This document shows positions 14,135-61,529 of a DNA stretch of 64,000 nt, piece by piece. Origin of the DNA: Brachyhypopomus gauderio (taxonomy: Eukaryota; Chordata; Actinopteri; Gymnotiformes; Hypopomidae); NCBI RefSeq assembly GCF_052324685.1, contig NC_135225.1, positions 4,478,129-4,542,128 of the forward strand, in the 5' to 3' direction. The position numbers and the translations under genes were made by a program. The notes beneath the pieces are model-generated. The model saw nothing but the letters and a program-made list of their open reading frames with translations. It searched no databases and was not told the origin of the DNA. The first letter of the stretch is position 1. Every line of letters starts with the position of its first letter.

Positions 14135-14139
14135 ATATG

Positions 14140-14435
14140 TGTGACGGGCAGGGTGAGCGAAAATAAATGGAAGCGATCACGCCAAGTCTCAGGGAAGTAG
14201 GATGGTTTAATATGTAAAGTGCGCAAACCAAAACCCGTGAACTGATCCGAATTAAGGATATAATAACCAGCAGTCAACTGGTACAAAGACAAGACATATA
14301 TAGACAAACAAACGACCCTCAGGTGAGACGGATCGCGGGCTCCGCCCACCTGAGGGACGAACACAACGCCACACCCACAGGACAAGCTGCTGCTGTAGAC
14401 GGGGGCGACCAGTAGGGGGCCGCCGTACCGTGACA
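14140..14435 (-). repeat. LTR, 3' copy on the minus strand
   Basis: 296 bp with TG...CA type ends, identical to 16053-16348. On the minus strand it lies directly after the polypurine tract. Confidence 0.93.
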
Positions 14436-15315
14436 GATCCCCCCTCCAAGCCGCACTCCCCTCCACCGGCTGTGCGGCCTACAGCAGCAGCACACAAAAC
14501 AAAGGGGCAGGCAGGCAGGGACAAGGGACACACCCCTTGTAGTCCCGGAGCTGAAACACAAAACACAAACAGGTTAGCTCACCTACCTGGGCGGGACCCT
14601 GGACCGACTGGGCCGTCAACAAGACAAAACCACGCCCCGGTCGGTCACAGGGCCCTCACGCCCTAACCGGCCTTAAGCCGCATAGCCCCACAGGTGCGAG
14701 GACGGCGGGCCACGGCTCCGTGTCCGTCCGGGGTGTATGTGTGCAGGTTACCTCCCTGGGGCGTGGCCAAGTCACCTCCTGGACCTACCTCCTCCCGGAG
14801 CTGGCCCCTGCCTTCTGCTAGGGGCCACCCCAGCCTCCTGGGGAGTCAGCCCCAGCCGGGGCCTGACTTTACGAGGTGGACTCCTCCACCAAACCCAGGA
14901 GCGCCAGAGACCGAGGCCCAGAGCGCCCTTATCGCGGGCTGGGGAACAGCCCCCAAGGGCCTCCTGGTCACCCCGAGCAGGAGGGAGGGTCTCCATCTTC
15001 AGCAGGAGCTCTTCGGACCAGAGCCCTATCGTCCCCAAACATCCGGGGGCCCCAGCCCTCTAGGGAGGGGCTCTTTCCGACCGGGCTCCGGTCACCCCAC
15101 AACATAAGGGGGCTCCTGCCAGTTGGAGACCCCCACAAGGTCCAAGACTGCCACGATCCACCGCCAGGGAGAAGCACCTGCACATAAAACACAAAATGCA
15201 CACACACACCCACACCAACACAAAACACATACGCGCACTTACCCTGACCATCTCGGCACCCCGCATCCGGGGGGAGGGGTCTCCATCTCAGCAGGAGGGG
15301 ACACCAAACAACTCA

Positions 15316-15329
15316 CCTGATGCATCAGG
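15316..15329. repeat. 14-bp perfect palindrome in the LTR element
   Basis: CCTGATGCATCAGG, in the internal region of the young LTR element. Its role is unknown. Confidence 0.7.
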
Positions 15330-15772
15330 AGAGGGGCCCCTACCGGCTCCGGAGAACACCCTCGACTCCCTGGTCAGGGCCTCCCTTAGGAGCTACGCCC
15401 TCCGTGCCATATTCCGTGGCACGGGACCACCACTGGTCCACCCCCAACACACATTCAAGGGGAGGAGCATGTGTGGAATTACACACAACATAATCACGGG
15501 CACGCAAGAACAACACACACGCAAAGACTAGACAAACAAAAAACAGTGTACAAACAACGAACGAACGGAACTCTTACATGCGCGCTCGGTATGTTGTGAC
15601 GTGCCGCTCAGATTCGCAGTCGCTCCCCCACACAAAACACAAGACGACAGGGGAGCGAGGCGACAGTGACGAGCGGCACCCGGGTCACACACGAAACACT
15701 AAACACAAAACGCCACGAGCACGCACACAGGTCCACACGCCCGTTCACATGTACACTTCACCCACACAACAT

Positions 15773-15952
15773 GAAGAGTTTTACAGGGAAGACGCCCTGG
15801 TCCTCGCCGTGCAACACACAAAACAAACGCACGGCGAAACTCTTCAGACAGACAAACGACGGACATGAAGAGCTGTCTCAGGGCAGACTGCCCTGGTCCT
15901 CGCCGTGCTACGCACACACAAAACACAACACAAAAGCACGGCGGAGCTCTTC
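15773..15952 (-). other. Tandem pair of three-way RNA folds in the LTR-element leader
   Basis: Two adjacent units of about 75-95 bp each have the same plan. Unit 1: outer arms GAAGAGTTT (15773-15781) and AAACTCTTC (15837-15845), an inner hairpin CAGGG...CCCTG, and a second hairpin CGCCGTGC (15805-15812) with GCACGGCG (15829-15836). Unit 2: outer arms GAAGAGCT (15867-15874) and AGCTCTTC (15945-15952), an inner hairpin CAGGGCAG/CTGCCCTG (15879-15895), and CGCCGTGC (15901-15908) with GCACGGCG (15936-15943). The outer stem differs by a T-A to C-G change that keeps pairing. On the minus strand the pair lies about 100-280 nt after the 5' LTR, where LTR elements carry packaging and dimerisation signals. 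That role is inferred. Confidence 0.75.
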
Positions 15953-16052
15953 AAACAAAACACCACGCAGACAAACACTTACCACGAGACATGACCACGA
16001 ACGAAGGAGAAAGCAAAGGAGACTGGCGGCTTCCGAAGGTGGCTGGTTATTC

Positions 16053-16348
16053 TGTGACGGGCAGGGTGAGCGAAAATAAATGGAAGCGATCACGCCAAGT
16101 CTCAGGGAAGTAGGATGGTTTAATATGTAAAGTGCGCAAACCAAAACCCGTGAACTGATCCGAATTAAGGATATAATAACCAGCAGTCAACTGGTACAAA
16201 GACAAGACATATATAGACAAACAAACGACCCTCAGGTGAGACGGATCGCGGGCTCCGCCCACCTGAGGGACGAACACAACGCCACACCCACAGGACAAGC
16301 TGCTGCTGTAGACGGGGGCGACCAGTAGGGGGCCGCCGTACCGTGACA
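16053..16348 (-). repeat. LTR, 5' copy on the minus strand
   Basis: Identical to 14140-14435. On the minus strand this copy would supply the promoter; its TATATA lies near 16211 on the + strand map. Confidence 0.93.
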
Positions 16349-19300
16349 ATATGTAATGCAAAGTCAACTTGCATTATTTCTGTATGGAGCAGACATGTTT
16401 CATGTATTTGTTTGCCAAGAAATACCATGTCAGATAATCTATGTAAGTTCATTTTGTAAGACATCCAGGTATATACATTACTCACATAAAGTATTTGGGT
16501 TTCAGGTCAAATTTATGGAAAACATTAGAGGTTCGCACTAGAGTGATATTATATCATGAATATTTTAAAGTAGAAGCATGCAATGATAATTCCTCATCTC
16601 ACACACTTAATTGAAATAAAAGCCATCAACAGTGGTGGGTAAATCCCATGTCAGTGTTTCAATAACTTCTTGTGTGTTCATGCAGAAGCACAATAACTGG
16701 ATTCATGATGTTATTCAAGTAGTAGGACTTGTCACTGTACTTTTCACAAACTGTAGGGCAGTTCTGTATTGACTAGACACACCTGCCCACATACTGTAAC
16801 ACTACCACCACCACCAATGGCTCGTCTGGTGACAACAGTTGCTGATGCATAACGCTCTTCTTGATATCTCCAACATCACTGGCGGCCATAATTTCTGCTC
16901 TGTGTGAATCAACTTTCATAAGTGAACATCAGTGAGGCCCACTGGTACCTCGTCCAGCGCTAATGCTCCCTGGCCCATGCAAGTAGATGACGCCTGTTAT
17001 CTAGCACGCAGGCCACTCCGATGTAAACATTGTTTTGAATCTGATTTAGAATCTGACATGAAGCTTAGGAGCCTCTCAACTCGCTTAAATGTGCCTGGAG
17101 TTGTTTCATTGTCTGGTTCTGCAGGACACTGTTCACAATGAAACAGTCATCAGTGTGGGATGTGGCCTAAGGACGTCCACTTCTGTACCTTTCTGTGACT
17201 CTTCTCTCTGTATCTCTGTTGCAACATTAGCAGCACTTAATATGAGATCTTAATAATCACACGACTACTTATCTCTCAATAATGTCTCTTAACTGTTATT
17301 TCCTGTCGAAACACTGTGTTCTTGCTTCAGTGTCACCCTAACTGTGGATAGGAATATTCCTCCTCTGCACACAGGCCATGCTTCCAAAACGCAGTTTTTA
17401 TCAAGCTTAAATTAATCAATCAATTATCGATTGATTATAACTGTAGGCAAATGTGACACAACTGGAGAAAGATCGCATGAAATCAGGTGACCAAAAAAGG
17501 AATGTGTGTTTATGTACTCAGTCATTTAATCACCATGGCTCCCGGACATGGGCCGTGAGCCAAACACACAGCACCTGACCCACAGTCTCGTTTTCACCCC
17601 AGGTCAATTCAGCAGTACCTTAGATGTTGTCGCTTTAACATAAAATGAGTGCCTACAAACTTCCATGTAATAGTCCCATTAAAGCACACTGTCGTAGTGT
17701 ACAACTGTTTACTCAATGTCACAGGTTTCACATGAAAGGTGCACTAAATAACCTCTGAAATTTTATTTTCAAATGTTATGTGAAATAAACCTTCGTAATT
17801 TTCCATTTTGATCCATGAAGGTCTTGAAACGTCGCCTCCCCCGCTGTGGGAGATGGTTAAGGTTGAGCTTAACAGAGGAAGAGAAGCTATAAATACAATA
17901 TCAGGTGACATCATGGTAGTTTATAGTCTTTTTCTTCCCTATTACTGCAAAAGTTTAAATGTGGTATGAGCAGGAAACAATGTTCAAAATGTCTGGCCTA
18001 TTTCACATTCACTTTACAGGATTTCCTTAGGCTGGATATTGTGGAGGTTCAATGACCACCAAATGTGCACATAGCAGTGACAGGAAATGTTTAAATATCA
18101 CATTTACACTGCTTCATTATCTGCCTATTTTACCAGCTTAACCCCATTCTCCTGAGTGACAACGCTATTATCTCAATAATATCTGGACAGCAGTGCTCCA
18201 GTGATAAACAGGCTACCTGGTGTCTGACAAATTGCGCATCAGAAAATATGGGACAGATTCTTTATGTGCACATAACATATGTGTAATAAAGGGATGAATG
18301 CCCTGAGCCAAAGAGTTAATTCAAAATAAAAAAAAATCTATTTTTAATGTACATACCTGTACAGGTACACTGAATGGCTCCATGTAGAATAGAATTGTTC
18401 AAGGTTCAATGTTAAATGTAGCTTTGCAGAAACACAGCTTATAACAAAACATCACCTGACTACTAATTCTGTCCATCTGTGATCACTCAGGCACCAGCGT
18501 AATACTCGTGTTCCCTGTTGTCTTTGTGAAGGACCGTTGGCCTCAGGTCAGCATATGGAGTGTTGACTGGTTTTCCACTAATTACCCCAGTTTCTGTTCT
18601 TTGCCCTGTTGTTATTGCACCTACCTTGTTTGTTTTTTTTGTTATTATTATTTAAATTGTACTTAACAATTGGATTGTCCAGGTTCTTTCAACATGACAC
18701 TAATAAGAGATGAGCAAAGAATCATGTGATAATATTCACAAACGATTACTTCCCTCCTGACCTTTTAAGTGAAATTGCATAGCCCAATGAAGTATATGCA
18801 GATTTATGGGCAAGAAAGAAAGAACATTTGTGGACCCAGTCTATATTCTCATTAGTACTGATATTGCTAAAGTTGGAATTTTGTAACTTTAATTACAATA
18901 TTAATATTAAAGAAGAGTCTCTTAGGTCAAATGTGAGGCATTTCATCTATGCTCATTTCAAATCAACACGTAGCAGCCAGCTTAACAACGGATATCAGGG
19001 GAGGGGTTGGGTGCTTTAAACCATCAAATCTGTTACAAACCTCATAATGACATCTAAGCACATGTTATTTATCCATCTTTTCCTCCATACTCTTCTTTTG
19101 AGTGCCAAGACAGTGGGTGAGAAAAAAAACCGATGGGGATGTGTCTGCACACATACTTAAATCAACACCAAATAAGGGGAAACAGGGGAAGACAATATGG
19201 CATGATGCTTAAGAATACTGCCACGAGACAGTAATAAATTACAACTTCAGAGAAGAAGGATAAGACCACTGGAAAAGTGTCCAATATTCAGCAGTAGCAT

Positions 19301-46595: not shown

Positions 46596-61529
<14,934 letters not shown>

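Follow-up and report, generated by a model that had tools for sequence, protein, structure and literature searches.

A young, apparently non-autonomous LTR retrotransposon with a putative self-priming site and a duplicated folded unit in its leader

We analyzed a 64-kb stretch of DNA (the window), with a GC content of 42%. Judged by the general look of the sequence, the host is probably a teleost fish. One ORF, at 57758-58129, matched ERCC-6 (CSB) PDB chains (3.3e-34), and Pfam returned nothing for it at an E value of 0.01. Other ORFs on the + strand, between 46.5 and 61.5 kb, resemble the same ERCC6 gene by eye, and a minisatellite at 53904-54748, in which a 22-bp unit is repeated about 39 times, apparently lies within this gene, judging by its position. 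Among the other ORFs in the window, we tested 10 of the 45 listed (at least 110 amino acids), and none had a Pfam match at an E value of 0.01.

Positions 14140-16348 contain a 2,209-bp LTR retrotransposon that is read on the minus strand. Its two direct LTRs are identical at 296/296 positions. The features that delimit it are the following:

14135..14139, no strand: target site duplication ATATG, low-coordinate side (sequence)
14140..14435, minus strand: 296-bp 3' LTR (in the element's orientation), with TG...CA ends
14436..14447, minus strand: polypurine tract GGAGGGGGGATC adjoining the 3' LTR (sequence)
16053..16348, minus strand: 296-bp 5' LTR (in the element's orientation), identical to the 3' LTR
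16119..16124, minus strand: ATTAAA, a possible polyadenylation signal in the LTR, at LTR position 225 of 296
16208..16215, minus strand: TATA-like box TATATATG at LTR position 134, its first base 31 nt before the predicted start
16349..16353, no strand: target site duplication ATATG, high-coordinate side (sequence)

Paired direct LTRs, TG...CA ends, the ATATG duplication, and a polypurine tract identify the locus as an LTR retrotransposon. An earlier, sequence-only reading of this DNA had placed such an element on the minus strand, and the position of GGAGGGGGGATC before the 3' LTR and the signals within the LTRs bear this out. Because the LTRs are identical over 296 bases, the insertion is probably recent.

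The same reading had held that the element encodes no proteins, and our results support it. We listed 31 stop-to-stop ORFs of at least 50 amino acids that overlap the element and tested 10 of these, on both strands, against Pfam; none had a match at an E value of 1. For short ORFs such a negative carries little weight, because Pfam at an E value of 0.01 also missed the genuine ERCC6 fragment. The length of the internal region makes the stronger point: it is 1617 nt, and therefore a full gag-pol cannot fit. In Rfam, no family reached its gathering score in the 64 kb, and none was found up to an E value of 1 in 14140-16348. The element thus reads as young and non-autonomous, with no recognised protein. 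Self-comparison of the 64-kb window gave no second copy and otherwise short matches only, mostly GT/AC repeats. Scans with a 24-nt pattern gave 0 matches in IMG/VR and 0 in a collection of prokaryotic contigs. Patterns of 18 nt gave 8 and 2 matches in IMG/VR, with similarity spanning 18 to 24 nt in the 8 and at most 18 nt in the 2, and we took these as chance.

The best clue to what kind of element this is was missed by the sequence-only reading. It lies at the edge of the 5' LTR:

16042..16051, minus strand: putative self-priming primer-binding site (PBS) AATAACCAGC, 1 nt (G) past the 5' LTR
16175..16184, minus strand: GCTGGTTATT, predicted RNA 5' end and putative self-primer, LTR positions 165-174

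AATAACCAGC is the exact 10-nt complement of LTR positions 165-174, which lie 31 nt away from the start of TATATATG. A match of at least 10 nt anywhere in the LTR occurred in 77/20000 shuffled LTRs, and 10 of the 1581 other internal 16-mers match the real LTR over an equal or greater length. The predicted leader fold pairs GCTGGTTATT with AATAACCAGC. The mean pair probability of this duplex was 0.98 in the 420-nt leader, 0.95 in the 1,749-nt RNA, and 0.17 in a 595-nt stretch. The TGG with which a tRNA-type PBS starts was absent from the first 6 nt past the 5' LTR. Complementarity between the PBS and the 5' end of the element's own RNA is what defines the self-primed Tf1/sushi type, and it is what we find here with the predicted RNA start. 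The suggestion that primer signals sit inside the folded units described below did not hold up: the likely primer site is instead 1 nt past the LTR, where it would pair with the predicted 5' end of the RNA.

In the sense direction, the folded units come after the putative PBS and a donor-like GTAAGT, at a distance of about 100 to 280 nt from the 5' LTR:

15977..15982, minus strand: splice-donor-like GTAAGT (putative), 24 nt before U1
15867..15952, minus strand: U1, with an outer stem, a 7-bp inner hairpin, and a longer U/G-rich loop with two copies of UUUUGUGU (sequence, fold, pattern scan)
15773..15845, minus strand: U2, with an outer stem, a CGCCGUGC hairpin with a U/G-rich loop, and a CAGGG hairpin (sequence, fold, pattern scan)
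14756..14855, no strand: third three-way pattern (pattern scan)

We confirmed the coordinates previously given for U1 and U2, the three stems in each (an outer stem and two hairpins), and their location just after the 5' LTR. In retroviruses, packaging signals sit past the PBS, near the splice donor. U1 and U2 are homologous, with 83.6% identity over a 67-nt alignment (E value of 1.4e-9). We scanned for a three-way pattern, defined as an outer stem of at least 7 with hairpins of at least 8 and at least 5. It occurs at three places in the 64 kb, all within the element (14756-14855, 15772-15846, and 15866-15953). Block shuffles of the window (100) contained a mean of 0.63 and a maximum of 3 patterns per 64 kb; when the element alone was shuffled, one pattern was present in 32/2000 sequences and two or more in 0/2000. 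U1 and U2 are duplicates and therefore not independent events. The pattern counts strongly support a single structured unit that was duplicated, not two independent origins. Dimerisation, another role that had been proposed for the units, is disfavoured in its kissing-loop form, because the four loops tested contain no 6- or 8-nt palindrome. A protein-coding reading of the + strand ORF that spans U1 and U2 was rejected, as no homologue was found at an E value of 0.001 among 37 candidates scored.

We then asked whether pairing is kept between the units, using a hand-set alignment register and taking the sense-strand fold of U1 as given. Of the 27 pairs in the minimum free energy (MFE) fold of U1, 22 are unchanged in U2, 2 are changed on both sides, 1 is changed on one side, 1 is broken, and 1 falls in a gap. 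The two pairs changed on both sides are an outer-stem C-G that becomes T-A and a hairpin-end T-A that becomes G.U. Changed columns made up 6/53 in stems and 5/20 elsewhere, so that they are not significantly fewer in stems (Fisher P = 0.16). Random substitutions kept the folding energy as well as U2 does in 465/5000 trials (9%). The compensatory changes claimed in the sequence-only reading are therefore real in part. The outer-stem C-G (U1) and T-A (U2) is such a change, but the extension of the inner hairpin is not compensation: CAGGGCA/TGCCCTG in U1 reflects gain or loss of pairs, with one pair broken and one in a gap in U2. Covariation is weak, with one clean compensatory pair that is real yet not decisive.

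The strand on which the units fold best is the antisense strand of the element. In 100-nt windows over U1 and U2, z was -7.6 and -6.9 on the + (antisense) strand and -4.1 and -2.5 on the sense strand. Over 15700-16052 (353 nt), the + strand gave a z of -4.45, and 0/100 shuffles folded as well. The minus strand of this stretch, which the sequence-only reading had put forward for the fold, was not unusual (z of -1.37; 9/100 shuffles folded as well). In two contexts, the closing stems had + strand probabilities of 0.96 to 0.99. Those that each unit forms from its own arms on the sense strand, in competition with arm-swapped pairing, had probabilities of 0.59/0.63 in the 420-nt leader, 0.42/0.50 in 595 nt, 0.12/0.05 in 353 nt, and 0.01/0.05 in the 1,749-nt RNA; in the two units alone, they had 0.21/0.21, with 0.79 for the swapped arms. 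Since the sense closing stems are partly populated (0.01 to 0.63, depending on context), a rigid three-way junction on the sense strand is not supported. In these models the sense-strand outer stems are bistable, with arms that can swap between units, and clean folding is predicted on the antisense strand only. The CGCCGUGC hairpin has a probability of 1.00 in U2 in five sense contexts and of 0.32 to 0.97 in U1. Stems look cleaner on the + strand because A and C neither pair with each other nor form G.U. The cleaner folding of that strand is thus expected from composition and is by itself no argument for antisense function.

Beyond the two units, the element contains further folded modules and a recurrent loop motif, UUUUGUGU, that the sequence-only reading had missed:

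15598..15684, minus strand: M3, an outer stem and a hairpin whose sequences are unrelated to those of U1 and U2, with an apical UUUUGUGU partly paired in the sense MFE (fold)
14585..14668, minus strand: M4, a long stem with a U/G-rich loop on top (fold; the strongly folded stretch was noted as 14561-14680)
14810..14905, minus strand: M6, an outer stem CTCCTGGG/CCCAGGAG that encloses two hairpins (fold)
15935, 15923, 15823, 15710, 15637, 15225, 15196, 14563, and 14499, minus strand: first bases of the nine TTTTGTGT copies in the internal region

The 1617-nt internal region has nine copies of UUUUGUGU in the sense orientation and none in the antisense orientation; the rest of the 64-kb window has 12 on both strands. 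In 500 dinucleotide shuffles, the motif occurred a mean of 0.43 times and at most 3 times. Nine copies were reached in 0/5000 order-2 and 0/5000 order-3 Markov sequences, and each of 72 control stretches had at most one. When corrected for the choice of the best 8-mer, the excess is weaker, as some 8-mer occurred at least 9 times in 7/500 order-2 simulations (about 1.4%). Four of the nine copies lie in apical segments: two in U1 and one each in U2 and M3. The stems of M3 are unrelated to those of U1 and U2, so that the duplication does not account for the presence of UUUUGUGU there. On average, the nine UUUUGUG sites have a higher unpaired probability (mean of 0.30) than all 7-mers (0.08). The copies in loops are unevenly open, with unpaired probabilities of 0.20 and 0.59 in U1, 0.85 in U2, and 0.10 in M3.

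Across the window, 12 of 852 sampled windows (64 kb, both strands) had a z of -4 or below. Four of these are in the element, three on the + strand and one, in an LTR, on the sense strand. Both LTRs also carry a U3 hairpin, CCCTCAGGTG.../...CACCTGAGGG (14261-14400 and 16181-16320), whose z on the sense strand goes down to -7.0.

These results can be explained in several ways. It is somewhat unlikely that the units have no present function and are a GC-rich hairpin segment, duplicated once and carried by a recent insertion. The frequency with which random substitutions held the energy fits with this, as do the stem columns, which are not significantly more conserved; the LTRs being identical, this copy also had little time to show selection. 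However, such an explanation has to face the three three-way patterns in the element, where two or more were seen in none of the 2000 shuffles, and the same 8-mer, UUUUGUGU, borne by M3 on unrelated stems. We consider it very unlikely that the functional fold is the antisense one, whether in an antisense RNA or in the first-strand cDNA, which has the + sequence and its A/C-rich open loops. Although both units fold cleanly on that strand (0.96 to 0.99; z of -7.6 and -6.9) and less well on the sense strand, any such stem would be cleaner with A/C loops, and the sense-only orientation of the nine UUUUGUGU copies would be left without account.

The units might instead aid nuclear export of unspliced element RNA or control of its splicing, which we regard as quite unlikely. 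Known export elements include the constitutive transport element of simian type D retroviruses and the direct repeats of Rous sarcoma virus, and a duplicated unit architecture is found there as it is here. The signals on the minus strand would also suit such a role: the units lie just past the GTAAGT at 15982 (another is at 15242; 5 donor-like matches were listed) and ahead of acceptor-like sites, U-rich tracts that end at 15528, 15178, and 14551 (14 acceptor-like matches were listed, many of them in the LTRs). The element RNA might thus be spliced. However, two or more GTAAGT occurred in the internal region in 185/2000 simulations, which is not beyond chance, and no Rfam family was found at an E value of 1.

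The explanation that we prefer, tentatively and with slightly less than even confidence, is that this is a Tf1/sushi-like element that is non-autonomous and self-primed, and that its leader consists of folded modules whose U/G-rich loops plausibly bind Gag for packaging. The RNA of the element would start at GCUGGUUAUU, fold back, and pair with its own primer site. It would then prime its own reverse transcription inside particles supplied by an autonomous partner of the Tf1/sushi type. Past the primer site and the donor-like GTAAGT, U1, U2, and M3 would serve as stem scaffolds that display U/G-rich UUUUGUGU loops, and the nucleocapsid of the partner's Gag would bind these loops so that the RNA is packaged. 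In this explanation, the anatomy and the primer complementarity rest on the sequence, while the RNA start, the priming, the partner, and the Gag binding are what we infer. HIV-1 nucleocapsid is described as favouring UG-rich single strands (PMC8609798). PEG10 is described as homologous to the Gag of sushi-ichi (PMC10570562) and as using parts of its UTRs to package RNA (PMC8569846). As a counterpoint, an eCLIP study of PEG10 describes no common motif in the bound 3' UTRs, and its authors suggest that structure may decide (PMC6450627). A bolder version, which we think improbable, is that of a vertebrate LTR element that has lost its protein genes and lives on RNA alone, with a self-primer and folded modules that show UUUUGUGU for packaging by a sushi-class Gag, and with units that may switch between own-arm and swapped-arm folds. 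If this were true, the switch could separate packaging from reverse transcription.

Protein-free LTR elements (LARDs and TRIMs) and self-priming of the Tf1/sushi type are each already known. As in the Tf1/sushi group (Tf1, Tj1, and the vertebrate sushi-ichi), the primer site beside the LTR is the complement of the RNA 5' end, which here is predicted. A 5-bp target duplication is typical of that group and is also what we find. For self-priming of the Tf1 and Tj1 type, reports range from fungi to vertebrates (PMC4600332). The LTR ends fit by eye the Sushi integrase motif, TGTYANR/CNTNACA, and fit equally the rGmr1-clade motif given in the table of the same source (PMC3601003). The Sushi LTR model published there has a clear AATAAA nearer the 3' end, whereas here we find ATTAAA at 225 of 296. 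No Gag, reverse transcriptase, integrase, or chromodomain was found in the 10 tested ORFs of this element, which leaves it without a phylogenetic placement.

Like LARDs and TRIMs, the element has LTRs, a PBS, and a polypurine tract without protein genes, although a putative self-primer here takes the place of their tRNA site. LARDs are described as longer than 4 kb and TRIMs as shorter than 4 kb, typically 0.5 to 1 kb (PMC4558846). At 2,209 bp, the element is below the LARD size and within the TRIM limit but above the typical TRIM size. Both classes are said to carry well-conserved RNA structures (PMC7215508). Retrozymes (PMC4918200) and Helenus and Ajax (PMC10886601) are likewise described as small non-autonomous LTR elements with structured RNA; however, the hammerhead, tRNA, or 5S sequence that marks them was not found here, as Rfam gave no match up to an E value of 1 in 14140-16348. 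Retroviral psi, which binds Gag and is needed for packaging, has leader stem-loops after the PBS, near a donor-like site, with U/G-rich single strands; the units have a similar predicted arrangement but differ in having no Rfam match. Among the literature matches listed, taken by titles and abstract openings with Repbase and subscription papers outside the search, there was no protein-free self-primed vertebrate element.

How protein-free LTR elements are recognized by the Gag of a partner is hard to work out. The packaging signal of TRIMs is called difficult to identify, and partners that mobilise them are hardly named, in the account of PMC4558846. A self-primed, protein-free element would provide a compact test RNA that acts purely in cis and whose distinct modules can be deleted individually. 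Binding of a sushi-class Gag to the loops, if it occurs, would also bear on how cargo RNA is chosen by mammalian PEG10, a domesticated Gag of the sushi class.
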